Shown in pieces: positions 15,200 through 43,006 of a stretch of 64,000 bases of DNA. Source of the DNA: Paragyromitra xinjiangensis (Eukaryota; Ascomycota; Pezizomycetes; Pezizales; Discinaceae); NCBI GenBank assembly GCA_038503065.1, contig JBCAMK010000005.1, positions 1,240,001 to 1,304,000 on the forward strand, in the 5' to 3' direction. A program made the position numbers and the translations under genes. The notes under the pieces are model-generated. The model did no database searches. It was given only the letters and a program-made list of their open reading frames with translations, and had not been told where the DNA came from. How positions within the stretch are numbered: the stretch's first letter is position 1; every line of letters starts with the position of its first letter.

Positions 15200-17205
15200 C
15201 ATCAGCAAAACTGATTCTGATCCAGGCTTGCGCTTCCAGGTCCCACATCTTCCAGGATGTCTGAGCGTTGGTGTGGGAAGGTCCTGAGCGCAACTGGATC
15301 AACCACCCGTGTTGTGGCGCACCCTGGTACCTGCAGGAATGAGGGACTGTGCTCCAGCACACCCCATGGACCTCGCTTGCATGGCCATGGACCTTCCTGG
15401 AGCTTCTGGAGCTCAGCTTCACGGTCCGTGGTCCTCTCTGGAGTTTCGTACCCATCTCCGGTGCCAATCAGGGTTCGCTTTTCTAGGTCCATGGTGCTCT
15501 CTGGATACCGCTGAAGTGCGTACCACCACTCCACCAGTGCCCTGAGGCATGTACCTGCCCTCTATTAGACCCACGAATTGCGCACCGCGCTGACAGGAGA
15601 TCGCAGGACTCGGACCTCGCTTGCAAGCAACAATGAATAACCCTGACCTTAGGGACTTAGCGAATTTTTGGCAAATGCCTTTTGCTGCCACCCGTACCCT
15701 ACCATTGCCACGTTACCCCTATTCTCCAACTCCCACCCATCCACTCCCATTCACACCCACACCCCCTATTGCCCTTCCCTCCCTACTTTGCAGTTATATG
15801 AACTTAGCTAACATCGTGACTTCAGTTCCCACATCCCACATACATTCAGACATCATTGACAGCATACATAAGACCCTATTACATCGGACCTCGCTTGGTC
15901 GGACCCCTTCAGCCGCAGACCCCTTCAGCAGCAGACCTTGCTCGCTTCCACAGCCTGCTGAATCGACTGCGTGAGAGCCTCCCGAGCAGCCTCCGAATCG
16001 GCTGTTTCTTAGCCTCCGAATTGACTGCTGAATTGACTCCTGAATAGACACCAAATAGACTCCCGAATAGACTCTGAATAGACTCCGAATAGACTGCGGA
16101 ATAGGCTCCTGAATAGACTCCGAATCTGCCGTTTCTAAGCCTCCGAATCCTGCTGAATTGACTGCTCAATTGACTCCTGAATAGACTCTGAATCAGCCGT
16201 TTCTAAGCCTCCGAATCCTGCCAAATTGACTGCTGAATTGACTGCTGAATTTACTGCTGAATAGACTCCTGAATAGACTCCGAATCGACGCCCGAACCAC
16301 TGCCGAATAGGCTCCTGAATTGACTCCCGAATTGACTCCGAATCCTGCCAAATTGACTGCCGAATAGGCTCCTGAATTGACTCCCGAATTGACTCCGAAT
16401 CCTGCCAAATTGACTGCCAAATTGACTGCCGAATAGACTCCGAATCGACGCCCGAACCGCTGCCAAATAGACTCCCAAATAGACTCCGAATTGACTGCGG
16501 AATATGATCCTGAATAGACTCCGAATCGGCCGTTTCTAAGCCTCCGAATCCTGCTGAATTGACTGCTGAATTGACTGCTGAATTGGCTCCCGAATAGACT
16601 CCGAATCAGCTGTTTCTAAGCCTCCGAATCCTGCTGAATCGACTGCCGAATCAACTCTGAATCAGCAGTTTCTAAGCCTCCGAATCCTGCCGAATTGACT
16701 GCTCAATTGACTGCTGAATAGACTCCAAATCGACTGCGTGCCAGCGCCTGAAACAACTGCTGAATAGCAGACCAAACAATTGATTTAGGCACAGGCGGGT
16801 TTAGTGTGGGGGGGGGTTGCCTCTAGTGGCGACTGCTTGATTTTGTACATAGAGATCCTAAAGTGTAGCTTTTCAATATACGTAGCCAAATTGATACCAA
16901 TAATCATGAACATTCGCGTACCCCTAGTAGTATTATTATTGGCGCCCTACAGCCGCCCTATAAGCGACCTACAAGCGACAGTGTGGTCCACAGGAATTGA
17001 TAGAGCTCCAGGAAGGTCCGCCATCTATGGTAGGTGGTCCAGGGAGGTCCACGAGGGTCTGTGAGAAGTGGTGTGTGGTCCAGGAACCGTGTGCAAGGGT
17101 CCTTGGGATATGGCTGTTCCATGGACTGGCACTTGCCTCCATCTGGTCCGCGCCGTCCATGAGGGTCCGGGAGCGCCCGGGAGCCGAGAATCGGTTTTGC
17201 TGATG
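15200..17205. mobile_element. CATCAGCAAAA-ended element, copy 1 (2.0 kb, non-autonomous)
   Basis: It begins CATCAGCAAAACTGATTCT and ends, in reverse complement, CATCAGCAAAACCGATTCT, giving ~19 bp terminal inverted repeats with one mismatch. The centre is a minisatellite (15,978-16,780), and I see no transposase inside. It shares its ends and much of its length with copy 2 (27,820-28,219 plus 41,306-43,006). Flanking dinucleotides (TA left, GA right) do not match. On either side lie two inverted transposase relicts that are not continuous with each other, so the locus was rearranged after insertion. Confidence 0.7.
15978..16780. repeat. Minisatellite of ~12 bp GAATTGACTGCT-like units (copy 1)
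   Basis: Dozens of imperfect 12 bp units alternate (CTGAATTGACTG, CGAATAGACTCC) with a recurring longer block around GTTTCTAAGCCTCCGAATCC. This gives higher-order repeats of varying length. Spurious ORFs with SIQESIQQ and AVNSAVNS repeats arise from it. The same array type occupies the same place in copy 2 (41,705-42,560). Confidence 0.85.
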
Positions 17206-18955
17206 GATGGCTGACCACGCAGAGCATTGCCAACTCCACAACCTGCAGCAAAACGCCTGCCCAAAGTGCAAGGTCAAACCAGACCAACTTGGTGAGCAAG
17301 CCAGCAGCCCGAAACGAAACGATAAGGAGTATCAGGAAGTGGCGCAATCCTTCGCCGATACTGGAGATCCTCAGGAGTTGGAGTATCTTGTCGAACGAGG
17401 GCTGAAAGCGCCATTCAATGTCTTTTGGGGGATGCCACACCTCCCTCGCGCTGGGGACCTCCACAAGCCAGACCTCCTACATAACATCTATCTCGGTTTA
17501 TTGAAGCATCTGATGGAGTGGATAGAGAGCTTCCTTGAGAAACACAAGAGGCTGCAAGCATTTGACGAAGTCTGGATGTCAATACCCCCCTTCCCAGGCC
17601 TGGCTAGGCCAACTAAAGCCTATCGAGAGGTTTCCCAGTGGCAGGGCAAGGAGATGCGCAATCTCGGCCGTATCCTTCTTGGAGCCTTTGCAATTGCGCT
17701 GCTCCATTCGTCGAAGGATGAGCTATATCCTTTCAAGCGAGCTATCCTTTGCGTGCGGAGTTTTATCGATTTCCACCTTATGGCACAGTATCAGAGCCAT
17801 ACACCTGAAACCTTGCGATATATGGATCAATACCTCGTCGACTTCCACCAGCATAAGGATATCTTCCTAGAATTCAGAGCCTCGAAGAAGGCAAGCGCAA
17901 AGGCATGGGCAACAGTCAAGCGCTTGTAGCTATCGCAGGATGCCCGACCTCCTCTTGCAGGATCAAGAAAAAGACGATTGGAGGATGCAGATAGGCTTGA
18001 AAGGAGAGAGCTACTCGTTGAAACGCAGCAGGAAGAAAGCCACTTCAACTTTCCAAAGATGCACCTCCTAATGCACTTCCATGAGCATGTTGAGCGGTAT
18101 GGAGGGATCCCCATGTTTTCTACCGAGGTTGGGGAGACAGCACATTGGCAGCAGATCAAAGAAGGATATAGGGCATCCAATAAAATCGATTTGACGAAGC
18201 AAATCCTGCGCTACTATGCACGTTGACAAGCATTGGATATGCGTATATTGAACCTCCGGGCCCTTTCTAAGGATGCTGAACCTCCCAATTCGCAGCTGCA
18301 CAATATCCTTAGGCCCAGACGATCCGAGATCCAACATATAGGAGAAAGAGCATCCCTCCGGCGATTATGTGGTCGACAAGTGAAGATTTCCCTTCTGCAT
18401 GACATCATCTCCCTCATGAATATTCTGGATCTACCGGAATGAATACTATATTACAGCAGTCAGAACTTGAAGGATGAGCGTCGTCTTGAGGAGGATACAG
18501 AGGCTCTTCTTACATACCCAGCTGAGATGTTCTCTCACCTTCGAGTCCCTGTGCCTATGTTTCAGCGGCCTGAGGAGTTTGAGCTTCATCGTGTGAGATG
18601 CACAGGGGAGTGAGCGTTTAGGGGTTGAGCTCCACGAAACGATTGGGTGTGGGTCCAGGTAGGAGACGAGAGCCAGTTTGGTGCTCTTTGAGGACGCCTT
18701 CCAGCCAAGGTGCTTTGCCTCCTTAAGATTCGAGATCCTCATACAGAGTACACACATCGGCCAGTCCTTGTGAGGATGCTACGAGCCTTTCCAGGTGGAG
18801 GTAGGATTACAGACGTCCATGGGATGGTGAGAGTATCTACTAGGCTGAAGGATGATCGATTTGTTGTGGGGATAAAGAATATCATGGGAATCGTGCATCT
18901 CATTCTCGAGCAGCCGGAGCTCCAGGATTATTTATTTATTGCTCATATTGCATAA
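17206..18955 (+). pseudogene. Plavaka-type transposase relict (family 2), C-terminal part
   Basis: The frame starts at ADHAEHCQLHNLQQ and continues through CPKCKV, KPDLLHNIYLGLLKH, QWQGKEMRNLGRI, DFHLMAQYQSHTPETL, FPKMHLLMHFHEHVER, AHWQQIKEGYRASNK and a C-terminal block ending NIMGIVHLILEQ. It matches the relict at 13,226-15,199. In-frame stops occur at 17,927 (TAG), 18,224 (TGA), 18,440 (TGA) and several further TGA codons. At YYAR*QALD the other copy has Arg, so at least that stop fits CGA to TGA decay. The N-terminus is missing, cut by the element at 15,200-17,205. Confidence 0.75.
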
Positions 18956-27819: not shown

Positions 27820-28219
27820 CATCAGCAAAACTGATTCTGATCCTGGCTTCTACTTCCCGGTCCCACGTTCTCCTGGAGGTCTGAGCGTTGGTGTGGGAGA
27901 GTCCTGAATGCAACTGGATCAGCCACCCGTCTTGTGGTCTATTTTGGTTACTACAGGACGGAAGGACTGTGCTCCCGTACACACTGTGGACCTCACCTAC
28001 AAACCCATGGACCCTCCTGGAGCTTCCTGGAGCTGAGCTGCACAGTCCATGGTGCTCTCCGGAGTTGCGTATCTCCCCCCAGTACCGATCAGGGTCCGCT
28101 TTCTTAGCTCCATGGCGCTCTCTGGAGCTGTGTACCTTCCCCCAGTACCGATCTGAACACCACTGAAGTGCGTACCTGCCCTCCCCCAGTCCCCTGAAGT
28201 GCAAACCTCCACTCCACCA
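27820..28219. mobile_element. CATCAGCAAAA-ended element, copy 2, left part
   Basis: It starts CATCAGCAAAACTGATTCT with TT before it and follows copy 1 (15,200-15,560) closely. It is interrupted at 28,219/28,220 by the 13.1 kb Plavaka-type element and continues at 41,306. Together the two parts are ~2.1 kb, close to the 2.0 kb of copy 1. A ~70 bp segment with CTCCATGG and GTACCGATC is locally duplicated within it. Confidence 0.78.
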
Positions 28220-28232
28220 CGTCGCGAAAAGC
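28220..28232 (+). repeat. Left terminal inverted repeat of the 13.1 kb element
   Basis: CGTCGCGAAAAGC, the exact reverse complement of 41,291-41,303. It is preceded by the CA target duplicate. Confidence 0.78.
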
Positions 28233-28445
28233 CCCAAAAAAGTCGTAGGCCGCGGTAAAATTTAGCAATTTCCGGTAGCCTCGCCTAACATATGGGTCCT
28301 ACCACACGCCTCCCATAGCATATCCGTGCTTTTGGTAGTCTCTCAAAGCGCATGGCGCCTTTAGCGAGCAATCTCGTAGCCTTCCCGTATACTTTCGGGA
28401 GGCTTTGTGTGTTAGCTCTCCTTTCATGGTCTTTCGCGATGCCCG

Positions 28446-28800
28446 CCAATATCCGTGCACTCTACCACCCACTCTGACGTGCCCACCATTTTGCTACCAT
28501 TGCTACCATGGGCTTTCACCGGGCTTGCTAATATCTGTGCAACTCTGACATGTCTACCATTTTGCTACCTTTGCTACCGCGGGCTTTCACCATGCTCGCT
28601 AATATCCGTGCACTCTACCGCTAACTCTGACATGTCTACCATTTTGCTACCTTTGCTACCGCGGGCTTTTACTATGCTCGCTAATATCCGTGCACTCTAC
28701 TGCTAACTCTGACATGTCTACCATTTTGCTACCACTAACTCTGACATGCCTACTATTTTACGTGCTTTCGCTATGTTTGCTAGTTTAAGTCCTTTGATTC
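28446..28800 (+). repeat. Left subterminal repeats carrying CTCTGACATG
   Basis: Four to five units of 72-82 bp each contain GCTAATATCCGTGCACTCTA, AACTCTGACATGTCTACC, ATTTTGCTACC and GGGCTTTCAC. Unit starts are near 28,446, 28,526, 28,598 and 28,680. Subterminal arrays with a fixed core motif are typical of CACTA elements, where an element protein binds them. Here the core would be CTCTGACA. A nearby GGGAGGCTTTGTGT (28,400) recurs inverted at the right end. Confidence 0.7.
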
Positions 28801-28883
28801 GCTACTAGACGTGCTTTCGCTATGTTCGCTACCAGTATGCCACAAGAAACAGAAACACCCCAAGTACTAGCTAAAGACCTATC

Positions 28884-29790
28884 CTAATCCAACATGAATA
28901 TGACAAAATTCCCTGTAATAACGTCCTGCGGTTGCCATCTGATCTACTGGGAACCGCCACGAAGACTAAGGACCAAGTGCAAAGTCGACTCCTTCTGGGT
29001 GGCCTAGCTTGCCGTCGAAAATGAGACGCTGCTGGTCTGGAGGAATGCCTTCCTTGTTCTCATCCAACATGAATATGAAAACATTTCCCGTAATCGCGTC
29101 CTGCAGTGCCATCTAATCTACTAGGAACCGCCACGAAGACTGAGGACCAAGTGCAAAGTCGACTCCTTCTGAGTAGCCTAGCTTGCCGTCGAAAATGAGA
29201 CGCTGCTGGTCTGGAGGAATGCCTTCCTTGTTCTCATCCAACATGAATATGAAAACATTTCCCGTAATCGCGTCCTGCGGTTGCCATCTGATCTACTGGG
29301 AACCGCCACGAAGACTAAGGACCAAGTGCAAAGTCGACTCCTTCTGAGTAGCCTAGCTTGCCGTCGAAAATGAGACGCTGCTGGTCTGGGGGAATGCCTT
29401 CCTTGTTCTCATCCAACATGAATATGAAAACATTTCCCGTAATCGCGTCCTGCAGTGCCATCCGATCTACTGGGAACCACCACGAAGGCTAAGGACCAAG
29501 TGCAAAGTCGACTCCTTCTGAGTAGCCTAGCTTGCCGTCGAAAATGGGACGCTGCTGGTCTGGAGGAATGCCTTCCTTGTTCTCATCCAACATGAATATG
29601 AAAACATTTCCCGTAATCGCGTCCTGCAGTTGCCATCCGATCTACTGGGAACCACCACGAAGGCTAAGGACCAAGTGCAAAGTCGACTCCTTCTGAGTAG
29701 CCTAGCTTGCCGTCGAAAATGAGACGCTGCTGGTCTGGAGGAATTCCCTCTTTGTTGTCCTCAATCTCGACACACTCGGACTTCGCCTCT
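28884..29790 (-). repeat. Tandem array of ubiquitin-derived ~174 bp units
   Basis: Five units with a period of 174 or 175 bp start at 28,884, 29,059, 29,233, 29,408 and 29,582. On the minus strand each encodes NKEGIPPDQQRLIFDGKLG, almost identical to the ubiquitin segment DKEGIPPDQQRLIFAGKQ. The most complete frame (29,849-29,664) reads SECVEIEDNKEGIPPDQQ. The 174 bp units equal 58 codons; units with one extra T shift frame, and some have TAG, so no long polyprotein is open. The array lies just downstream of the transposase on the same strand. A captured and amplified host ubiquitin fragment is the best explanation; whether it is expressed is unknown. Confidence 0.75.
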
Positions 29791-29872
29791 GACACCAACA
29801 CTCTGACACCAACTCTGACACCAACACTCTGACACCGACCCTCTGACACCGACCCTCTAACGCCGACCTCGC

Positions 29873-32735
29873 CTAATAAACCGTGTTAAACATCTCTAGA
29901 TCGATGTAGTTGTTGATGAAATATCGCCCTTTTTTGCCTGCTTCTGCAGCGATGAGGTGAACAGCACGGGATATACGGCTCACTGGAATAATTCTCCGCT
30001 TTGTCGTGACTCTGGTATCCGATAGCTCCGATTGTTTACGGACTTCTATCATGCCGCTGTTTGGGTTAGGCCTACCGGCATTCATCACAGTCAGATATTC
30101 CACCAACGCCAGTTCGTGGCCTATTTTGCGAAACTTTGGACGACCGTTGTCTTTATTTCCATCGGGGACCTTGTCGATGAAGGTGAAAACACAAATGAGC
30201 TCTGCCGGCTTCAAGCCAGTCTCATTGAAGTAGCTCTGGTTAGGCCCACTAACCCCAGGCTCTGTTTGAATGAGGACGTGGTCGTACTGGGAGCCATCTC
30301 CCCTCCAATCGGTCACACATCGCGCAAATTCTGTGCAGAATTCCTCGGGGTCGTTGTGAGAAGGGAAGCTGGCCACCACTCCTGTGCCCATCGTAACCTT
30401 TTGTGCTGCAATCCAGGGGATACTGCTTCGATATTGTGTCAAATGATAACTAGTGTTCGCCCCGGATTGGATTGTAAAGAGATAATCCCGTACAAGCTTC
30501 AGCAACTCTGACGCGGACGCCAACTCTGACGTGGGCGCCAACTCTGACGTGGGCGCCAGCTCTGACGTGGGGGCCAGCTCTGACGTGGGGGCCAGCTCTG
30601 ACGTGGGCGTCAACTCTGACGCTGACACGTTGATGTGGCGCGGTAGCTGCAGTTTTCCCATCAAAACTTGCTTGGGAATATGCCCACTTATGACAGTTTT
30701 CCTTTCTTTCCGACCGACTCGTAACTCATCCACAAGAGATAAACAGACTGTTGCCCATCGTGAGCCGGTCTTTATCAGATGTTGCAGCAGCGTGGTTCGT
30801 GCTTTAAGTTTGAACAATCTATCCTCCCATCTTAGCATTTGCAAAAGCGGCTTTACCTTGTTCGTTGATCGATAGGCCTCTTTGATCATCCAGGAATGCG
30901 CGGCTTCACTTTGCTCTGTGTCAGAGTTGTCACATGATCCGAAGTCGCGTATACTCTCGGTGTAATGGCGCATCATGTGAAGCTTTGGTATGCGGTCAAA
31001 GTTTCCAGAGTCCCTGGATTCCACGAAGTTCCCCAAAAGAGACTCGTAGCCCGCCATTGCTTTATCCATCATTTCCAGGGTGTTCTCTGTATGGGAGTGA
31101 TAGCCGGCAAACATAATGAATTCAGTAAGATGTTTCAGACATCTCAAGTGCTCCGGTCGTCTTTTAAAAAATGGTGCTAAGACCCCGATCCACACCTTCA
31201 GCATGTGCTTGTATTCTGCCCCCGTCCACTGAGAAATCTGGGAAAATTTGTGACCGAAGTTCTTCAGATCACTAAACAGGGGTATCTCTGCGAACCGCTG
31301 ATCAATCTCCGCGATGACGTGTGGTCCATGCTCCTGTACGAGATATGTACATACCCACTTCCATGTATGGTCCTTCAGGACGCCCTTGAGTAATTGATGA
31401 AGCCGGTCTGGATTGATTGCATGATAGATATTGCAGTGAACGTGGTGGGCGGTAAAGTTTTCGAAATCAAATCTCCACTGCCCTACGGCTTCGAGCTCCG
31501 CTGTCGACATTAGAGCATAGCGGGTGGGATCTCTGGGGGTAGGCGGGACCCCAGTCAGAGTACTTAAGTTGTCGGGGTGCATTCGCACCTAGGGCACCAC
31601 ATAGACTTTACCAATGTCAGAGTGACCATTTCTGGGTAATCGGCTATCCATGTCGCGATGCGGGGAAAGACTTTCCTTGTATATCCGTCTGCACAAACGA
31701 CATCTGCCCCTTCCTGGCCTGTGGATTCAAAAGGGCGCAACATCTGCCGGATTGCCTCGTGAAAGGTCTTTCTCGTCGTTTCTCTTGCTGGGTTCTTTGG
31801 GATTTTAGGGAGGATTCCAAGCAAGACCAACCCATTCATTCTGACGGCTCGTCGTTTCTTTTTCGCGAGGTTTCCAACCGACATATATACTGGCCATGCA
31901 CTCTTATCACCGCTCAATGTGGATAGCATTGTTTTGTCGCTACCGATAATAATCGGTGCAATCGTTGCCCCCTTGGGAGCGTTCTCCTAGTTTGAAGTCA
32001 ATATAAACATTGGTGTCAGTGTCAGTGTCAGTGTCAGTGTCAGTGTCAGAGTCAGGGAGCCGAGACTAGAAGGGCTTTTACCTGTTGCCGCCACCACCAG
32101 TTGCCTGTCCACATCTCAGAATATAATCGTTTGCCGTCGGAACCATAATCCTTTATCGGAGAATAAGTCAAGTGGTCTTTGAAAGGTAGGTGGCCGAAAA
32201 GATATCTTAGGATTGCCATTGGATCTCGATACCAGTATTCCACCTCTTCACCTTCGATATTAACCATACCCTCCATCCATTCGCAGTCAAGTCCGTCATC
32301 CATAGCATGTATCAACTCGCGGAAATGATCGGCACTTTTAATATTGATCTTATCATTGAATATTCCACGACGTATCATACGATCCAGGGCGGCCTTTCCC
32401 ATATTCTCCTCTACATGGGTACGGCAGAAGTCCCATTGTAACTTTGATTCGAAAGGAAACAAAGGATGCCAATCGGGGCTATCACATGGATGAGTTACTG
32501 GTGGGCATGGTAGAGCGATGCCCGCATCAGGAAAAGTATCTGGTCTTCGGGGCGCACCCTCCTCCTCCTCCTCCTCCTCCTGTCCGGGACAGCTATTGTC
32601 CGCGTCGTCTTCATCGAACCTTACACGATCTCGGGACTGCTTATTGTGAGTTCGACGATGATGGACAGTCAAGCCACCTGGGCTAACAAAGGACTTTCCG
32701 CAGATTCCACAAAGAAAATCCAGTCCAGAGGGCAT
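29873..32735 (-). CDS. Plavaka-type transposase with N-terminal C2H2 finger (one frame break)
   Basis: The start is set at the Met of MPSGLDFLCGIC (32,735). A C2H2 finger (CGICGKSF...HHRRTH) and an acidic linker precede blocks typical of fungal Plavaka transposases: WYRDPMAILRYLFGHLPF, then after an intron (32,081-31,987) APIIIGSDKTMLSTLSGDKS, PVYMSVGNLAKKKRR, ADGYTRKVFPRIATWIAD, WCPRCE, FTAHHVHCNIYHAINPDRLH, FAGYHSHTENTLE and RIPKLHMMRHY. The frame changes near 31,580 after WCPRCECTP. A one-base indel is most likely; a 56 nt intron with an ACTCTGACT branch site could also bridge it. SELAPT repeats near 30,500-30,620 are encoded by the CTCTGAC minisatellite. The enzyme would cut at the element's inverted ends. 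Confidence 0.78.
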
Positions 32736-33289
32736 TGAAAGGGCGGCGGGATCGCTGCTTGAAGTTAGACAATCAAACAAACGAAGCAAAAACAAAGGGT
32801 TCTAGCTCTGACACTGACACTGACACTGACACCAACCGACTCTAACTCTGACGTGGTGAGATCTGGGCGGACGTATATAAGCTGGATTGTAGGTCAGATT
32901 CGTTGGTGGCTGTTGACTGCCTTTGTTTGCTTGTTAAAGGGATAAGCCGAATCGGGAAACGAGGCTGCAGCCGGAAGCACCTAACCTGGCTAGACCAGCC
33001 GCCAACGTCATTGAACAAACACAGCAACCTCAACCTCCGCTTCCGCCTCGCCATCACTACCACCACCACCACCACCACCACCACAACCACCACCACCCTT
33101 GCAATCTCGGGAAGCAGCATTTGGGCATCAGAGACATCGAACAATCAACGTCAGAGGACTATACCCCGCTATGTATATAAAGAGACCGCTCGCCCGGCTA
33201 GCTGCAAGTCTATACTCGCCTATCCGAGTCCTCCACCCAAGCGACTTCTTTGACAGCACTAGCATACCTACTCTGATAGCGACTTGACA
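32736..33289. promoter_or_regulatory. Divergent promoter region between transposase and helicase
   Basis: About 550 bp between two oppositely reading genes. It contains CTCTGACACTGACACTGACA and further CTCTGACG copies (32,804-32,855), a TATATAAG box at about 32,875, a CAC/CCA microsatellite (33,056-33,095) and a second TATATAAAG box at about 33,174, about 115 bp before the helicase ATG. Motif copies here would let a motif-binding element protein control both genes; that is inference. Confidence 0.5.
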
Positions 33290-36200
33290 ATGGCACAAGC
33301 AGGTGGTAATATTCGAGAGTGGCCGATAGCCGCATCTAATTATACCGTCGAAAATGTGAGAACTGCCTTTAAGTTGGACAAGTCGGAGACGCAGGAATTT
33401 CTCGGCTCAGATGCTGTTACCGATGCCGTTTCAGAGCTAGTAGCATGGAAGACGAAGTATGCCACTGCTCAGTCGCCTTCACTAGCGCAAGTTACCACAA
33501 GGAATATTGTCCCCGCCGGCCAGCAACCTGTGGGAAAACTTCAGGTATATCAATCTAAACACCCACTCTGACATCACGTACTCTGACATCGGTTATCTCT
33601 GACATCGCACACTCTGACATCGCACACTCTGACATCTCTTGATATAAATAGGAATATATGACCATACTCGAGGGCCTAGTCGATGGTGCTCGGGTTTTTT
33701 TTGCTCTTGGTCCCAATGACCCCGTAGTTCTCAACGATATTCGCGATGCCCATCGGGTTCTAGGCTGTGCTGCTCGGCAGGCCGTACGCAGTGGCGGCAC
33801 CCCGGCTGCCACCCCGAGACGGCCAGCGGCTCCAGCTCCGGCTTCTGTAGCTACTACTCCAAGGGCATCTCGACGATCAGCAACCGCAGGCACTTCTTCT
33901 TCGTCTGCCACTCCTTCGACCGCCACCTCAAGTGCGAGAAGGCCAGCAACCCGGGCCCCTTCTACCTCTCAAGCCTCTCCTTCGACCCAGGTCGGTGCTA
34001 GAAGAAGCACTGGTGCTAGGAGTACTTCTCGGTCTCGAACTTTGGCAAGGCGCGATGCCGTCCCTGCAGCCCGTACAGCTCCATCCCAGCGAGACTCTGG
34101 GAGCCCACCACGCAGCAGGATTCGAGTGGAAGACCGTGGAGATCCGGAACCCACGATTGAGAAACGAGTCGATCTTCAAATGGTATGGGATAATCACCCA
34201 CCGGAAGTGCCGAAAAGGAGCGCCCTAAAGTTTCAGGCAAACATCCAACGCCGCCTGCAGTACTGGGGTGACTTCGAGCGCTGGGTAGAGACCGAATATG
34301 GCCTATCTTTCCTTGGGTTACGAGTCGCTCAGTACTTGGCCAGCACCACGCCATCACCGCAACCGAAGTTTGATCTGGACGATTATGAGCTTACAGAGGC
34401 GGATTGGGAGTTTGCTGTATCCAATGCTAGCCGCATGGGGATCTTAATGGTATCACTCACGACCGCTCCACAAGCTCCAGCTCCAGCCCCAGCACCTCCC
34501 CATGTGTCAGTGTCAGAGTCGGCAGCGCAGCCCGAAACCAACGATACCGCAGACAATGAGGAGAGGGAGAGGGAGAGGGAGAGGGAGAGGGAGAGGACCG
34601 ACCAAAGCCTCCGGCGATCCACCAGCAGAGTGGCAAACCTTCGCATTGGCAACGAAGCTCCTGAAGATCAAGATGTTGAAATGCCTGACCGGCCCCAGGA
34701 GACGCTATCCCCCGCGCGCAACCCGGCTAGGCAATCAGGCCTGGCTGCTAGAACACCCACACCCATTGATGAGCAGGACCCGATGGAGGATGAAACAGAA
34801 GATCAGGGCGCAGCTGAAGGGAAGGGGAAGCAGAGGGAGGAAGGGAGGGGAGGGGAGGATCAGGGCGCAGCTGGAGGGAAGGGGAAGCAGAAGGAGGAGG
34901 GGGAGGAAGGGAAGGAGGAAGGGGGAGGAAGGGGGAGGAGGGGGGGAGGGGGATAACCCACCGGCGGATAGCAGCGAAGATTCGGCCAGTTCGCAGTCGG
35001 AACCAGATATCGGTGAAATAGTGAAACCCACGCGGCGTCTCACCGGCATTGGCCGGGGCGGGCCTGACAGCCAGGTTAAACCCAGGCCGAAGGTTCTGAT
35101 CAACACAGATGCCGACTTTGATCTAATTGCCGGGGCTCCATTCGATAAAATAGTTCTTGGTGAGACTGGAGATGATTCTCGGAAGGAAGGGCCCGATGAC
35201 GCCGAAGGAGATACAGCTAGTGTTGAATGGTACGAGTCATGCTCTGACAACCCACTCTGACAGTACACTCTGACAGTCGGCGTTTAATTTAGGTTGCACA
35301 GAATCCTGGATAACGAGATCTTCCAAAGGGAGAATCTCCAAGAGTCGTTCACTGCCTTGGGCATAGACCCGGCGACACGGGCTTTTCCATTGATCAAACC
35401 TCCATTCAAATTTATGGACCACCAGATAATCGGCATCAATTGGATGAAGGAAAAGGAAGAGGGTTTAGCATATGGGGGACTCCTCGCTGATGACTGTGGC
35501 ACGGGTAAAGTAAGTGTTCAATCAAACCGTTCCACATCACTCTGATATTATTTCTTATTCCTGACTCGGACCAACCAGACAATGACACTGCTGGGACTAC
35601 TGTGTATTCAAGCTCATGAGTACGAAGCACGTCGGGTCCAGCAAAACTTGACTACGGAATTCTACCAGCAGGCTCTCGGGACCTACGAACGATCCAAAAG
35701 GGAAGGGACACTCAAGGAGGGAGATATGAAGCCCCGGAACCCGGATAAGATCTTCATGGGACCGACGTTGATAATCTGGTACCAATAACTCTGACACTCA
35801 CTCTGACACTGTCAGTACTGACTCTGACGTTTGTGATCTTTAGTCCGGTTCCAATGATTTCGGAATGGCAAGAGGCAATTCGTAGCAACACTCTACTCAC
35901 TCCGATTCTCCACTATGGCAACACTTTTTTCGATAGGAGGGCTTGGCACCAAATCAACTCTGCCAGCAAATTCCCGTGGCGCCATGTCATCATTACCACA
36001 AAGGAAACGTTGATGAAACGTTGGAACACCAAGGACTTCCGGGGCCGAAGATTTTGGGGTACTGAAGACTTGCTTCTTCAGCGTTTAGTACTCGACGAAG
36101 CTCATCGCTTCCGAGTGTCCGGCGCCCCCCCAGCAGGCGTCATTAGCCCCACCACAGGATTACTTTCCCGCAGCGACCCAAACAATGCCATGGCAATGTG

Positions 36201-37887
36201 GGCAAAAAATTTGGACTCGCTAAATCCAGAGGCCAAATGGATGTTAACGGCCACCCCTCTAGTAAGTACCATGTCAGACCTCCGGTGGGTATGTCGGTTC
36301 CTACAACGGCCTGAGTGGCTATCGGACAACCTGCCCCCAGATACGTTTGCCAATAAACACGACATCGAGTTAGGAGCGTGGTTCCAAAACCCTGATCGAC
36401 CCAGCGAGGACGGAAATAATCTGGATGCAGCCTTTACTCCTGTCGCAGATCCGTTCCGGGATTATAAGGCACATGGCTCTTATGTCCACTGCACAACAAA
36501 AGCCTGGAACGCCTTTATCTGGGGCAATCTCAATAATGCATCGAAGTTGCAGCACCTCCAGCGCACAGGAATGATCACCCCGAGCCAGCGGCAACATTTG
36601 TCAGACTCCTGCGGATAGTGGGAGGATATGCGCAAGAGATTTTGCGTACTCTGATACTCCGCCGCTCGATGGTCAGCAGGATTCCGTTTCGGGTGGGTAA
36701 GCCGATTATCGATATACCCGTCATGAAGACTGTCACCACTCGCCTGCAGTTCGCAGATGACGGATCCAAGGATGTTTATTCCTTCCTAGTCGACAATTAT
36801 GCCCAAATACGCGCTTCTTTTGGCAGGTCAATAGCAGAAGGGCAGCAAGCGCCAATTCCAGGCCATAAATTTGGCCCCCGTTGGCGTTATATTCGTTTGG
36901 TTTCATTGTCCCCTTTGCTTGCCTATGCTTCCTTTGCCGAGGAGTTTTCCACGGAGAACTTATTCAGCAAGGACCGGGCGGATGAAGGCCGTCCACACCG
37001 TTTGAAGGTGAAATCTCTGCTGACGAAGTTCCGCGAGCAAATGCCGGACAGGGGAACAGATTTCTACCCGGAATCTATGGCCAACATGAGCGATGAGGAT
37101 ATGGTCCGGGCAATGGAATTCTGCAGTCCAAAATTGGGTCGACTCAAAGATCGATTGCACGAATTGGTCACTTTGGGCGGGAAGAAGGTTATATTGTGGG
37201 TCTATTGGCCTCTGTCGCAATGGCTAATTCAAGAAGTAAGTAGCCTTCTGTCAGTGTCAGTGTCAGTGTCAGTGTCAGTGTCAGTGTCAGTGTCAGTGTT
37301 GGCGTCAGCGTCAGTGTCAGTGTTGGCGTCAGCGTCAGTGTTGGCGTCGGCGTCGGCCCCACTTGATCTCTTAATCGCTCGATCATGTTCTAACATAAAA
37401 CTAGTACGTTCGACTGCTCGGGATTACCTGCTTCGCTGTCTACAGTGGTCTAAGCAATAAGAATCGTGACAAAATAAAGGATTCATTCAATAAAACCAAG
37501 GACATCGACGTTCTGGTCCTCTCCTATCTCTGCAGCAACGAGGGCATCAATCTTCACTATCAATGCTCGGATACCATCATGGTAGAGCAAGGTCTTTCCT
37601 ATGCATCGGAGCATCAGGCATGGAGTCGGGTCCGCCGCATCGGGCAAAAGGAAGAGCAAAACACCGAGCGTCTAGTTAATCTCCAAACGATCGATACATT
37701 GATCGAGAAGGCCCAGCGGGAGCGCCAGAGCCCTATGCTATATGCATGGGGAATTATGGAGAGCCTCGGGGGAATAGCAGACACAGACGAGGTCTTTGAC
37801 ACGTTGATCGGCAAGATACCTCCAGCGGTTTTAAAAGACCAGATTATTGGACGCGGGGGCCCAGATGAGCTCGAAATAGAGGACTGA
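33290..37887 (+). CDS. SNF2-family helicase-like ATPase, multi-exon, element-borne
   Basis: Proposed exons: 33,290-33,544, 33,652-35,229, 35,293-35,509, 35,579-35,778, 35,844-37,235 and 37,405-37,887. The N-terminal half is Ser/Thr/Pro and Glu/Arg-rich, low complexity. The ATPase core follows: MDHQIIGINWMKE, Walker A as DCGTGK-TMTLLGLL across an intron, LIICPVPMISEWQ, the DEAH box LDEAHRF, TATPLVS, then VYSGLSNKN, VLVLSYLCSNEGINL and QAWSRVRRIGQ (motif VI). Two frame changes remain: in the GGGAGGA tract (34,890-34,955) and near 36,570-36,600. Several introns contain CTCTGAC repeats. SNF2 proteins translocate on DNA and remodel chromatin. A role in helping transposition is possible but unproven. 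Confidence 0.75.
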
Positions 37888-38647
37888 CTCGGCACTCGTC
37901 AGACTTCTATTCTGTCAGAGTTGCGCCGGTTAGGATATGGGTATTGGTTTTCTTTCTTGTTTTGTTCGGGTATTACTATGGGTACGGGATGGGTACGGGA
38001 TGGGTACGGGATGGGTACGGGATGGGTATCGGGGGACAGGGTATTGGTTTTCTTTTCTTTTGTCTGGGTGCTGCTGCGGGTACAGGTATCGGGGGGATAT
38101 GGGTATTCGTTTTCTTACTAGTTTTGTCCGGAGCCCGATGAGCTCGAAACAGGCGGCTGACTCGATATTTGTCAGACCTCCTATTCTGTCAGAGTTGCGC
38201 CGTCGGGGGTATCAGTTTCCCTTCTTATTTTGTCAGGATATTACTATAGGTATGGGACGGGTATCGGGGGCATATTTTTGGTTTTCTTTATTTCGTTTCT
38301 GTTTTTTCCATGGGTTATCTTTATTATGTGGCGGAGGGTTTACTTTTACTATGGGGACGGGCTCGGAGTACTGCAAATTTGTATTTATTGGGAGGAATAG
38401 GAAGGTTTTTTTCGAGTGAGAAGACATGATATTCGACTTGAGCCTAGCGTCGCAGATCCTTCCAGCTCCGCGGGTCTCAGGCCTCCCAGTACCGTGGATC
38501 CCCCTTTATCTATCCCCCTTTCTTCTTACGATCCCTCTCCCTCTTCTACCAACCATCATAGCCTTGCATTACTGCCTTCACTCCCCTGTTTCGCCCCATC
38601 ACCCTTGTTTCCCCCCCTTGATTGTATTTGTATTAAACATCCTCGCC
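37888..38647 (+). repeat. Spacer with a duplicated helicase 3' end and GGGTACGGGAT tandem repeats
   Basis: The stretch 37,858-37,980 (CAGATGAGCTCGAAATAG..., GTCAGAGTTGCGCCG, TTTTGTTCGGGTATTACTAT) recurs imperfectly at 38,128-38,262. The second copy therefore repeats the helicase stop-codon region. Between them five ~10 bp units of GGGTACGGGAT run from 37,979 to 38,030. No gene is seen; 38,430-38,640 is a pyrimidine-rich leader of the next gene. Confidence 0.7.
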
Positions 38648-40593
38648 ATGCCTCCAAAAAGTCAAGCAATATACCCTGATACACAACGAAAGACGCGTAA
38701 TTCAGCTGCATCGTCGTCTACAAATACTGACAGCAGACGTGGCAGAGTTTCGAGAAAACCCTTGGGTGGTCACGCGTCGACACGTCGAAGGGCCACCACT
38801 GCCCTGACACTACCAGACAGCCAGGCAGCCAGCCAGTCAGAGTACGACTCTGACACGGCGACGGGGGCAGATGTTCTCGCAAGTTCCAACATTTTGGTGC
38901 CAGCTACTCCTTTCGAACCTTCTACCATGCCACCTCCTCCTCCTCCTCCTCCTACTCCGCCACCTCCTCCCCCTACTCCGCCACCTCCTCCCCCTACTCT
39001 TCCTCCCCTTCGCAGACACCCCAAACCGAGCCCTTGAGCATACTATCGTCTCCTCCAGTTGCTGTCACCGCTACCCAACATCCGCCTTGTGCTCAGCGGA
39101 GTCCGAGAGAGCTAGACTTAACTCCCCAGACCCCGCTCCCCAGCATTCAGCAAAGCCCAGATCTAGGAGATTTTGAGGACTTGGGGCAACTAGAAGTGAT
39201 GATGATTCTTCCGGGCCGTACTTGCTATACTCTTCCAATAGAACTCCGACCCCATTTCAACCGCCTGTGAGGAAGTCTATTGGACCTGGCGTAAGCTATC
39301 CCCTTCAAATAGGATATGTATCCTGCATCGGCTTCAACTCTGACATTTACTCTGACATTGGCTTACTCATACTGATAGTCCTCCGTTTCCAATTTGTCTT
39401 CAAGCAGTGGACACGATAGTAATGGGAGCGGTAGCTATGCCGGCAGCAATTTCCGAAAAAGGAGGTCGGCCTCGACGCTGTCAGACTCGGTCCCGCCTAG
39501 TGAGGCAAGATCACGGGACAAGAGAAAAATAGGCACACTGAGGGATAGAGGTGAGCTTAATCCCAACTGGTCAATTGCAAGAGATATATTCGTACTACGA
39601 ATACAGACGGAAAACCCCTACCCCCGGCCAGACGTGCAGGAGATGATGGCTGTTTCTGTGTTTCGAGAGGCGTATGGGGAATCGGGCGATCGATTCGACC
39701 TCAGCGAGATCGGCGATACCGAAATTCACATGGTATCAACCTTCCTTTCCTGTACGCAGTTAGTGGAGGCTGACACTGAGGCTCTGGCATAAAGTTGGCA
39801 GACCGTATATCAACCTCCCGAGGGTACTTTGCCGAAGCGGCTAGGGAGTGTGTTTGTAAGGTGTACGGCCTTGATACATTGAAGGGAGACGACCTCCTTA
39901 ATCGCGTTCGTAGGCTTATACGCGATAACAGTCATCGTTTCCACTTTTCGGATGAGAAGAAAAAGGCGAGTTACCAGTAGTTTCCTTAACCGCTCGTCCT
40001 TCAGATCACAGTAGAGTGCTAACCCGAACACAGGTCCCGAAGAAAATGTTTTGCCATTTCGCAATCGCTAATGTAATTCACGGTGCTTGGGACGGCAAAA
40101 ACATATGCACGCCGACCTCACACCCGAAAATATAGCGACGAGATTAGCCCAGTGGCCTTGGTTTTGGCGACAGTAGCTATCCGGTACGCTCTTGACAATT
40201 GGTCTTCGGGAGTATCTTAGGAAAAACTTTGAAGGAGGGACGTTTAAAGGTGAGCCTGTGTGTATACCGTGTCCATTCGGAACGTCAGAGTCGGAACGTC
40301 AGAGTCGGCATGTCAGAGTCGGCATGTCAGAGTCTGCACGTCAGAGTCTGCAGGACGGGATATTGTACAATTATCAGAGCTGATTGCAAGGCGAAGGGGT
40401 CTACGATGAGTATACCAATCAGTGGAACACAATACCGAAAGAATCGCAGCGAATTATCCTCGGCATCCAACTAACGGAGGTAAAAAGGTTATCGGGATGG
40501 GAGACTGGCGATGGAGGGAAACCGGCGGTGGTGTGGAACCCGGAGGTGGATTTGCTTGCGGACGATAGCGATGATTCTGGTGACGGCTGTTGA
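38648..40593 (+). CDS. DUF6532-like protein gene, element-borne (frame breaks)
   Basis: It starts MPPKSQAIYPDTQRKTRN with a basic Ser-rich head and a long polyproline tract. The frame changes near 39,000-39,280. Plausible introns are 39,291-39,378, 39,733-39,794, 39,966-40,033 (GC donor) and 40,250-40,390. Downstream pieces read YFAEAARECVCKVYGL, FCHFAIANVIHGAWDG, SPVALVLATVAIRYALDNW and KGEGVYDEYTNQW, an order that resembles the fungal DUF6532 domain. A frame break remains near 40,090 in an A run. I recognise no catalytic residues. The last intron is filled with GTCAGAGTCGGC repeats. DUF6532 is a family of unknown function; the assignment is tentative. Confidence 0.45.
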
Positions 40594-41290
40594 TGGGAAT
40601 GGGATTTAGGGAAAGTATATTACAGCGTAGAATAGAATGATAGATTAGCATAGATTAGCATAGATTAGCGTAGCATAAAGCATAAAGCATAAAGCATAGC
40701 AGAATAGAAGAAATAAATATAATCTCCGGGCACAATGTATCACTCTGACAGCGTCAGAGTAGTATACGAAATGACAATTAGAGATTTGAGAACACTCACA
40801 GAAGACTATCGTCGCGTTCACGAAGCCTCCTAAAACACGCTCCGAAGCATATACAAAGCTTCCCCAATTCCCTCTGACAGTGTACGAGAACGCTCCCAAA
40901 AGACTATCATCACGTACACAAAGCCTCCCAACACACGCTCAGAAGTGTACACAAAGCCTCCCCAATTCACTCTGACAGCGTACAAGAATGCTCCTAGAGG
41001 ACTATCATCGCGTACAGGGAATCTACAGAATGGCTTCGAGGAGCCGCGCAAGTTACATTTCCAAAGGTCTCGATAGTTTACCTATTGGCTGTCAAAGCTT
41101 ATTGAAAGCACGGTGAAAGCACGGTAAAAGCACGGTCAAAGCAAATGAAAAACATGGGATATGCTTTTGGTTGTCTCTTGATAGACATTAAAAAGCTCGA
41201 TTGGTCGTTTTCGCCTATTTCGCCTATTTTTGTTACCATAGCGTGTCAAAGGCTATGGTAACACGCAAAAGGCGGGTGGTAGCAAATCAA
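40594..41290 (+). repeat. Right subterminal region with CTCTGACAG repeats
   Basis: Short tandem repeats GATTAGCATAG and CATAAAG (40,645-40,700) are followed by ~100-130 bp units around CTCTGACAG at 40,743, 40,872 and 40,970. Each carries GTACACAAAGCCTCCC and AAGACTATCATC. A final stretch has GAAAGCACGGT direct repeats (41,105-41,140). GGGAGGCTTTGTGT of the left end appears inverted here. No coding sequence is seen. Confidence 0.65.
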
Positions 41291-41303
41291 GCTTTTCGCG
41301 ACG
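41291..41303 (-). repeat. Right terminal inverted repeat of the 13.1 kb element
   Basis: GCTTTTCGCGACG, the exact reverse complement of the left terminus, followed by CA, the target duplicate. Confidence 0.78.
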
Positions 41304-41305
41304 CA

Positions 41306-43006
41306 GTATCTTGAAGCACATACCTGCTCTCTATTAGGGTCCCAAATTGCGCACCCTGGTGACAGGAGATCGCAGGATCTCGCTTGCAATTGAGTCAATA
41401 ACCCTGGCCCTAGAGACTTAGCAAATTTTTGGTAAAGGTCTTTTGCTGCCACTCGTATTGTTGCCACGTTATCCCTTTATCTTACTCCCACCCATCCACA
41501 CCCATCCACACCCATCCACACTCCCTATTACCCTTCCCTCCCTACTATGCAGTTACATGAACTTTGCTAACATCGTGACTTCAGTTCCAACATCCCACAT
41601 ACATTCGGACATCGTTGACAGCAGACATAGAACCCTATTACATCGGACCTCGCCTGGTTGGACCCCTTCAGCCACAGACCCCTTCAGCAGCAAACCTCGC
41701 TCGCTTCCACAGCCTGCTGAATCGACTGCCTGAGAGCCTCCCGAGCTGCCTCCGAATCGGCTGTTTCTAAGTCTCCGAATCCTGCTGAATTGACTGCCGA
41801 ATTGACTGCTGAATAGACTCCTGAATTGACTCCGAATCGGCTGTTTCTGAGCCTCTGAATCCTGCTGAATTGACTGCCGAATTGACTTCTGAATAGACTC
41901 CGAATCGGCTGTTTCTGAGTCTCCGAATCCACTGCTGAATTGACTGCTGAATTGACTGCTCAATAGACTCCAAATCGACTCCCGAATAGGCTCCGAATTG
42001 ACTGCTGAATAGGCTTCTAAATAGACTCCAAATCGACTCCAAATCAGCTGTTTCTAAGCCTCCGAATCCTGCTGAATTGACTCCTGAATTGACTCCGAAT
42101 CGGCTGTTTCTGAGCCTCCGAATCCACTGCTGAATTGACTGCCGAATAGACTCCGAATCGGCTCCGAATCGGCTGTTTCTAAGCCTCCAAATCCCACTGA
42201 ATTGACTGCTGAATTGACTGCTCAATCGACTCCCGAATAGGCTCCCGAATAGGCTCCCGAATAGGCTCCCGAATAGGCTCCAAATTGACTGCTGAATAGG
42301 CTCCTGAATAGGCTCCAAATTGACTGCTGAATTGAATGCCGAATAGGCTCCTAAATCGACTCCGAATTGACTCCGAATCAGCTGTTTCTAAGCCTCCGAA
42401 TCCTGCCGAATCCACTGCTGAATTGACTGCTGAATAGACTGCTGAATAGACTCCGAATTGACTGCGGAATTGACTGCTGAATAGACACCCAATTGATGCC
42501 TGAACCTCTTCCAAATCCACAGCCAAACCGCTGCCGAATCCACTGCCTGCCAGCGCCTGAAACAACTGCTGAATAGTAGACCAAACAATCAATTTTGGTC
42601 AGGTGAGTTTAGTGCGAGGGGGGGTTGATTTTGTACATATAGATCCCGTAGTGTAGCTTTTCAATATACATAGCCGAATTGATACCAATAATCATGAACA
42701 TTCGCGTACCCCCAGTAGTATAGGCAACCTACAAGTGGACCTACAAGCGGACCAACAAGTGGCCTACAAGCGACAGTGTGGTCCACAGGTATTGATAGAG
42801 CTCCAGGAACTTGAAGGTCCGCCACCTATGGTAAGTAGTCCAGGGAGGTCCATGAGGGTCTGTGAGAAGTGGTGTGTGGTCCAGGAACCGTGCACAAGGG
42901 TCCTTGGGATATGGCTGTTCCATGGACTGGCACTTGCCTCCATCTGGTCCGTGCAGTCCATGAGGGTCCGGGAGCGCCCAGGAGCCGAGAATCGGTTTTG
43001 CTGATG
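41306..43006. mobile_element. CATCAGCAAAA-ended element, copy 2, right part
   Basis: This continues the left part at 27,820-28,219 and follows copy 1 from about 15,540 to 17,205. It includes a well conserved ~95 bp block (42,625-42,720) matching 16,840-16,940. It ends GAATCGGTTTTGCTGATG and is followed by TT, matching the TT before 27,820, a 2 bp duplication. No transposase is seen. Confidence 0.78.
41705..42560. repeat. Minisatellite of ~12 bp GAATTGACTGCT-like units (copy 2)
   Basis: Same unit types as 15,978-16,780 but a different order and number of units, including four successive GAATAGGCTCCC units near 42,235-42,280. Unit shuffling between copies shows that the array evolves quickly. 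Confidence 0.85.

Follow-up and report, generated by a model that had tools for sequence, protein, structure and literature searches.

A Plavaka transposon of Paragyromitra xinjiangensis with a SNF2 ATPase gene, a DUF6532 gene and a dispersed family motif

Plavaka elements are DNA transposons of the CMCT clade for which terminal sequences, short target-site duplications and capture of TET/JBP genes have been described. Families with and without a captured TET/JBP dioxygenase exist, and the main text of that account mentions neither SNF2 nor DUF6532 genes (Kojima 2025, PMC12730594). VANDAL elements of Arabidopsis combine an address motif with a protein, VANC, that causes loss of silent marks (PMC10398659), and CACTA/EnSpm elements carry subterminal repeats bound by a TNPA-type element protein that is thought to help or suppress excision (PMC2613891). 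Here we describe a 13.1 kb element in a 64,000-nucleotide stretch of DNA from the fungus Paragyromitra xinjiangensis (hereafter the window; C5:1240001-1304000 of a 48.2 Mb genome in 22 contigs). It carries a Plavaka transposase gene, a SNF2 ATPase gene and a DUF6532 gene, and a short motif, CTCTGAC, is dispersed through it. We consider the locus best explained as a self-sufficient transposon whose SNF2 ATPase may remodel chromatin on the element's own copies via a family-private motif, and we put the probability of this explanation as a whole at about one half.

We have very little doubt that the element, its ends and its three genes are as described. An initial annotation, made from the sequence, had placed a perfect 13-bp inverted repeat, CGTCGCGAAAAGC, at 28220 and 41303, and it is present exactly there. 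The CA read as a target-site duplication stands on both flanks (28218-28219 and 41304-41305), and the comparison with an empty site is borne out: the joined flanks without the element align in one piece to 15200-17008 (73.8% over 1980 columns). Genome-wide, the 13-mer occurs at 34 sites (16 plus, 18 minus), against 2 for the reversed control. Searches with both ends, paired by position and orientation, recovered 13 two-ended copies (Table 1), a left-only copy at C3:3640787, 1.5 kb from the contig end, a right-only copy at C11:1438441, and eight short elements (1.7-2.6 kb) with both ends and the same termini. The initial annotation asked whether all copies end alike, with a 2-bp duplication; most of them do. 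Termini are exact in eight of the nine two-ended copies compared, the ends of the C20 copy being degenerate, and a 2-bp duplication flanks 8 of the 11 copies whose flanks were read (CA, TA, AT, TG, TT, TA, CG and GG; C22 and C13 were left out) and is lacking in both C17 copies (C17a and C17b) and in C20. Three of the five short elements read have such a duplication, in each case TA. Aligned to the window copy, C6, C11 and C1:2668605 match in one piece over the full length; the two C17 copies match nearly all of it in several pieces, C3 and C14 match on either side of a nested insert, and C20 matches in parts only.

The predicted gene set and its divergent layout are likewise confirmed. With proteins taken from more intact copies, all three genes exceed the curated Pfam cut-offs: the transposase matches PF18759 (Plavaka) at 279.6 bits (cut-off 26.3) in the C3 copy, whose open frame of 931 aa underlies our gene model; the SNF2 protein of the C17a copy matches PF00176 at 88.3 bits (24.9) and PF00271 (Helicase_C) at 27.3 bits (23.5), which puts both RecA-like lobes above cut-off; and PF20149 (DUF6532) is matched at 38.6 and 73.4 bits (24) in other copies. 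The transposase is encoded leftward (minus strand) and the SNF2 and DUF6532 genes rightward (plus strand), SNF2 occupying the middle slot between the other two. The window copy was called complete, and in structure it is, but small indels interrupt the reading frame of each of its three genes; other copies have open frames at these break positions. We read the family as a self-sufficient Plavaka-group DNA transposon that moves by cut and paste.

Among the 13 two-ended copies, the transposase is matched in 13, SNF2 in 11 and DUF6532 in 11, with all three in 10. The DUF6532 match is absent from C1:2668605, one of the copies with so many single-base gaps that decay or assembly error is possible. 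The C20 copy has a large internal replacement and neither an SNF2 nor a DUF6532 match, and the outer C1:2001602 copy lacks the ATPase match while keeping the first SNF2 exon. Two findings that the initial annotation named as grounds for rejecting the unit did not appear in this genome: none of the 13 copies ends between transposase and helicase, and the helicase is not a syntenic host gene, since hits of at least 50% identity lie in family copies, apart from two halves of a related gene on C6.

The SNF2 gene model rests on GT-AG introns common to eight aligned copies, and the protein contains the helicase motifs DDCGTGKT, DEAH, TATP and QAWSRVRRIGQ; a Pfam scan found no match in its N-terminal half. 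For each gene part we made one pairwise comparison, by NG86, of nonsynonymous with synonymous substitution (dN/dS) between the main subfamily and the C17 subfamily, which are about 95% identical. The ratio is 0.26 for the ATPase part of SNF2 (856 codons; dN 0.0204, dS 0.0786; the C3 copy, which contained stops, was left out), 0.30 for its N-terminal part (381 codons), 0.18 for the transposase (917 codons), and 0.13, 0.09 and 0.28 for DUF6532 exons (118, 57 and 73 codons), taken exon by exon with the summed exons, which contained stops, left out. SNF2 is thus under constraint like the element's other genes, and we are confident that the ATPase is a selected working part of the element.

The second feature on which our reading rests is the motif. 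The window copy has 51 sites with the core CTCTGAC, preceded by A in 41 and followed by A or G in 49 (ACTCTGACR). Their density is 23.0/kb in introns, 5.2/kb in intergenic DNA (19 sites) and 1.5/kb in coding sequence (13 sites); the other 50.9 kb of the window holds 3 (0.06/kb). The core is constant, and flanks and spacings differ between arrays. One intron carries the core in antisense, another the shorter antisense CTGACA. Across the genome ACTCTGACA is found at 610 places, its reversed control at 336. Among the first 100 places listed for ACTCTGACA, C1 accounts for 76, and 48 of these fall within three family copies. Each of nine family copies read holds 24-52 motifs, nested inserts counted. 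All five short elements read hold 3-8 motifs in one orientation, against a mean of 0.2-0.35 and maxima of 2-4 in mononucleotide shuffles, and they align to the large element only over about 170 bp on the left (73-74%) and about 200 bp on the right (92-95%), with every motif outside these segments. A separate cluster of eight ACTCTGACA places among those listed occupies 62 kb at C2:2939600-3001190, outside any family copy found; its left border is just past C2:2936499-2938877, which matches the right end of the element in part.

Compared with described Plavaka elements, the present transposase scores well above the PF18759 cut-off, the duplications are of 2 bp (2 or 3 bp are expected), and CPRC and HCNIYH, candidates for the C(2)C and H(3-4)H motifs expected between the second D and the last E, are seen by eye in the C3 protein. 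A C2H2 finger at the transposase N-terminus falls below the Pfam cut-off. The element's CGTCG...CGACG ends match neither of the types set out for PlavakaA (TGT..ACA) and PlavakaB (CATCA..TGATG) in the published descriptions (PMC12730594), although they may be a variant of CATCA...TGATG. Because of its transposase, we place the element with Plavaka as an unlisted terminal type. As described, fungal transposons that carry TET/JBP genes (KDZ, Plavaka, Helitron and others) likewise bring a chromatin-related enzyme thought to aid escape from silencing, in their case a methylcytosine oxidase, and here a SNF2 ATPase (PMC12730594). We found no Plavaka unit with SNF2 in the open-access PMC papers searched, in line with the initial annotation, nor any report there of a DUF6532 partnership or of dispersed family words in Plavaka. 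To our knowledge, no other DNA transposon of eukaryotes brings a SNF2 ATPase of its own.

A close parallel to the motif is VANDAL, where, as reported, a short family-private motif lies in noncoding DNA, in arrays that gain and lose units and that differ between related families (PMC10398659). The present element too has family-private motif arrays in noncoding DNA, a likeness known here from sequence, and it differs in encoding a SNF2 ATPase. VANDAL elements are Mutator-like, with an unrelated transposase, and VANC is not known to be an ATPase. CACTA/EnSpm elements, whose transposase clade is related (PMC12730594), are reported to have many short motif copies that differ between families, but in subterminal positions (PMC2613891), whereas the present motif is spread through the introns and the whole body. 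The CAC..GTG termini and 3-bp duplication given for that group (PMC12730594) contrast with the CGTCG termini and 2-bp duplication here.

From these features we infer a mechanism in which ACTCTGACR would be recognised by a protein of the element, the likeliest candidates being the DUF6532 protein and the SNF2 N-terminal half; once bound, this protein would bring the SNF2 ATPase to element copies. The ATPase would then move nucleosomes off the introns, the promoter and the subterminal regions. Their removal would keep the element's genes transcribed despite host silencing and would give the transposase access to the element ends. A private address and a SNF2 motor would together be what remodelling confined to the element's own copies needs. 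Taken by itself, the claim that SNF2 is a motif-addressed chromatin remodeller acting on its own family seems to us slightly short of an even bet.

The remainder of the genome gives this arrangement a context. Plavaka matches merge into at least 97 loci; with 123 of 168 candidates scored, all our Plavaka counts are minimum values. The distance limits of 8, 6 and 15 kb used below were set after inspection of the data. Among the matches listed, a DUF6532 match lies within 8 kb of 51 of 83 non-family Plavaka loci (mean 4.2, maximum 11 in 1000 random placements), divergent and upstream in 44 of the 51. In one lineage, F5 (C7:1521500-1531499), an extra "middle" gene stands between the transposase and the DUF6532 gene. 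When the protein of this middle gene was used as a query, 58 of the 63 middle genes among the matches listed are near Plavaka (examples are L037 and L047-L050); such a gene lies within 6 kb of 58 of 84 non-family loci, in 54 divergent and upstream (random mean 2.6, maximum 9). The totals of 83 and 84 reflect differing bounds of the outer C1 copy. From this co-occurrence, the usual Plavaka cassette here is a transposase followed by a middle gene and a DUF6532 gene in the opposite direction. It is new that Plavaka in this genome has DUF6532 and an undescribed middle gene as its standard partners, in divergent orientation, and the partnership gives DUF6532 a context. We could put no name to the middle protein. 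A Pfam scan covering the N-terminal frame of the gene in the same position in another lineage, F3, was empty, and AlphaFold2, run on three middle-protein sequences, gave a mean pLDDT of 38.9.

In several diverged Plavaka lineages it is a SNF2 ATPase that occupies the middle slot. Besides the present family (F1) we found 10 further SNF2 genes or gene fragments of element type, distributed over 8 sites, a list assembled by hand from search hits that leaves out the second half of a split gene in lineage F2 and weaker host-like hits. Plavaka lies within 15 kb of 9 of the 10 (7 of 8 sites), in divergent order in 7 (5 sites), and a middle gene within 6 kb of none. Of the 59 matches in a genome search with PF00176, the 8 that have a Plavaka match at most 15 kb away are all element-type. 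The F2 gene (C6:1424693), 50-71% identical to ours in its first half, stands beside another Plavaka and is preceded by a relative of the SNF2 N-terminal half (31%); its second half, at C6:1468131-1469410, is 35 kb off in the other orientation, with no Plavaka match within 15 kb. F3 (C11:1525500-1544300) has two tandem SNF2 genes and a DUF6532 match within inverted ends TACATCAGC..., 21 bp with TA counted; these TA-CATCA...TGATG-TA ends equal the termini given for PlavakaB in the published descriptions (PMC12730594). In F4 (C7:209500-228500) a transposase, a SNF2 gene and a DUF6532 match follow the order of the present family. Searches for inverted ends in F4 and F5 gave none that were convincing, so the motif counts for these two include some flank.

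Dispersed words recur in these lineages. We counted 100-bp bins holding the best 7-mer and compared them with the maximum of 40 first-order Markov simulations, obtaining 29 (maximum 10) for the present family, 17 (12) for F3, 16 (12) for F4 and 20 (12) for F5; two host regions, with 9 (10) and 8 (10) bins, had no dispersed word. The words differ from ours, being CGGACC in F3 and ATCCTYC in F5, where 28 occurrences lie in 6.5 kb of coding and 20 in 2.7 kb of noncoding DNA; the F4 signal is weak and partly a tandem repeat. Since F5 has a word without SNF2, the word is probably read by a protein that Plavaka elements have in common (transposase, DUF6532 or middle protein), and of these we favour the DUF6532 or the middle-slot protein. 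A broader proposal, tentative and in our view less probable than not, is that each Plavaka here may have a private word read by an element protein, and that the lineages with SNF2 in the middle slot may thereby own a sequence-addressed chromatin opener that spares the host genome.

Several observations weigh against our reading. The short element with three motifs equals its shuffle maximum, and the F3 word is no denser outside coding sequence, unlike what VANC-type arrays and our own element display. For the same reason that points to a common reader, the word in F5, a dispersed word cannot exist solely for the ATPase. Divergent order is lacking at two of the seven Plavaka-linked SNF2 sites, on C10 and at C17:1013103, and at C17:1013103 the neighbouring Plavaka comes with its own middle gene. 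With the limits widened, an SNF2 at up to 12 kb is accompanied by a middle gene at up to 6 kb at three Plavaka loci; at two of them, position assigns one of these genes to a neighbour. Pairwise hits place the ATPases of F1 and F3 no closer to each other than to host SNF2, which makes separate captures at least as likely as a single old one. Homology between the SNF2 N-terminal half and the F5 middle protein, plausible by eye, was rejected, with an hhalign probability below 1% in all six small-alignment comparisons.

The ATPase might instead serve transposition itself, through access to cut ends, release of the transposase complex or Rad5-like gap repair, and not relief from silencing. By sequence, the best solved relative of the SNF2 protein is indeed the repair ATPase Rad5 (6l8n, E 1.9e-13), yet similarity is low and no RING domain is among the Pfam hits. 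Motifs cluster near both ends and are present in all five short elements read; most of them, however, lie deep inside the element and are densest in introns, where they would be of no use to a strand-transfer helper, and most Plavaka loci found here multiplied without a nearby SNF2. We regard a role confined to transposition as rather unlikely.

SNF2 remodellers of the DDM1/LSH type promote silencing, and the ATPase could in principle be a device of self-restraint that helps to silence the family and keeps down the number of its copies. The structural-database hits include LSH and DDM1 chains, and 13 two-ended copies are a modest number. Spread, though, is what selection favours in a transposon, and the presence of the motif in the short elements suggests help to mobilisation, which leaves self-restraint improbable. 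About equally doubtful is that ACTCTGACR is a microsatellite by-product, or a set of multiplied intron branch sites, and not a protein address. CTGAC does fit what we take to be the fungal branch-site consensus, a further point against our reading, and array lengths vary among copies, often by whole units. The core nevertheless stays constant amid unlike flanks and spacings, intronic sites occur in antisense, many sites are intergenic or coding, the F3 and F5 words are not branch-like, and the short elements hold the motif outside the aligned ends. That SNF2 is passenger cargo captured by chance, for which the separate look of the F1 and F3 lineages (capture may have recurred) and two SNF2 sites outside the usual slot could be cited, was already disfavoured and is very improbable given a dN/dS of 0.26, SNF2 in 11 of 13 two-ended copies and divergent order beside a transposase at five other sites.

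If SNF2 does act as a motif-addressed remodeller of its own family, an element-borne motor under purifying selection, joined to a private motif code, would represent an independent solution to the problem thought to be solved by VANDAL and the TET/JBP transposons. The usual picture is of eukaryotic transposons that depend on host chromatin machinery, and their escape from silencing would become testable in a fungus.

Table 1. Features of the element in the window (window positions) and two-ended copies in the genome (contig:positions)
Feature	Position	Strand	Remarks
Left target-site duplication CA	28218..28219	.	equals 41304-41305; empty site
Left terminal inverted repeat CGTCGCGAAAAGC	28220..28232	+	13 bp perfect; exact match
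Left subterminal cluster	28472..28745	+	5 CTCTGAC
Tandem repeat	28884..29756	+	unit ~175 bp, ~5 copies, number varies among element copies; self-alignment (element positions 665-1537)
Plavaka transposase gene	29870..32735	-	exons 32082-32735, 29870-31986; intron 31987-32081; frame broken in window copy
In-frame motif array in transposase coding sequence	30506..30620	-	7 motifs; encodes SELAPT-type linker
SNF2 ATPase gene	33290..37887	+	exons 33290-33544, 33652-35229, 35293-35509, 35579-35778, 35844-37235, 37405-37887; frame broken in window copy
SNF2 intron 1, example of intronic array	33545..33651	+	5 CTCTGAC
DUF6532 gene	38648..40593	+	multi-exon; proline-rich N-terminus; intron bounds approximate, 3' exon structure uncertain; frame broken in window copy
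Antisense motifs in DUF6532-gene intron	40284..40346	-	5 motifs
Right subterminal cluster	40743..40976	.	4 motifs (3 forward, 1 reverse)
Right terminal inverted repeat, CGTCGCGAAAAGC on the minus strand	41291..41303	-	exact match
Right target-site duplication CA	41304..41305	.	flank reading
Empty site, related repeat without insertion	15200..17008	+	joined-flank alignment
Two-ended copy	C5, window 28220-41303		window copy
Two-ended copy	C6:599975-613045		
Two-ended copy	C3:655238-674729		
Two-ended copy	C14:1130154-1144378		
Two-ended copy	C11:213126-226164		
Two-ended copy	C1:2004272-2021973		
Two-ended copy	C1:2001602-2041677		encloses C1:2004272-2021973
Two-ended copy	C22:710088-732733		
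Two-ended copy	C1:2668605-2681580		
Two-ended copy	C17:967445-980170		
Two-ended copy	C17:897967-910675		
Two-ended copy	C13:862890-882820		
Two-ended copy	C20:973468-989550		

Relatives of the SNF2 protein are few. Six proteins at E <= 0.001 among 7993 candidates scored are related to SNF2, five of them with 34-59% identity, and no DUF6532 relative reached that threshold among 828 candidates; five pattern matches to SNF2 in IMG/VR yielded none that could be confirmed. The best named relative of the SNF2 protein in the protein-level search is in Trichophaea hybrida and that of the transposase in Geopyxis carbonaria, both of which we take to be Pezizomycetes. In one SNF2 relative, P0002 (53% identity), both ends resemble read-through introns: they contain runs of LALALALTLT and ESDSDSD, which repeats of TCTGAC-like DNA could encode. 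Within the genome, a lone match (37%) to the SNF2 N-terminal half lies at C19:222705-223043 with no Plavaka match listed nearby. In F3 (locus L033+L034), beside the tandem SNF2 genes, a four-fragment array at reverse-complement coordinates 13758-14732 matches AAA_lid_3 at 142.6 bits and presumably resembles the C-terminus of a proteasome ATPase. The first 750 bases of L037, the F5 locus, read as a retrotransposon frame.

Some minor features of the copies and their surroundings complete the description. The SELAPT-type linker of the transposase differs among copies, mostly by 18-bp units, and the tandem repeat sits between the left end and the 3' end of the transposase gene. The two C17 copies are 99.7% identical, lie 57 kb apart in opposite orientation and both lack a matching duplication; an inversion between them is possible, one crossed flank pair matching (CC) and the other not. 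Nested inside the outer C1 copy are another family copy and a different Plavaka with middle-gene and DUF6532 matches. An Rfam scan of the window gave no match. Plavaka transposase fragments at 14820-15206 (minus) and 17198-17524 (plus) flank the empty-site repeat, which may mean that the element landed in a Plavaka-related repeat older than itself. The two short elements scanned for words, M2 and M7 (of the L029-L032 set), are full of arrays rich in ATTCGGAG and GAATTGAC; both sequences are also frequent in the window outside the element, where repeat arrays lie at 41713-42500 and 15955-16740.

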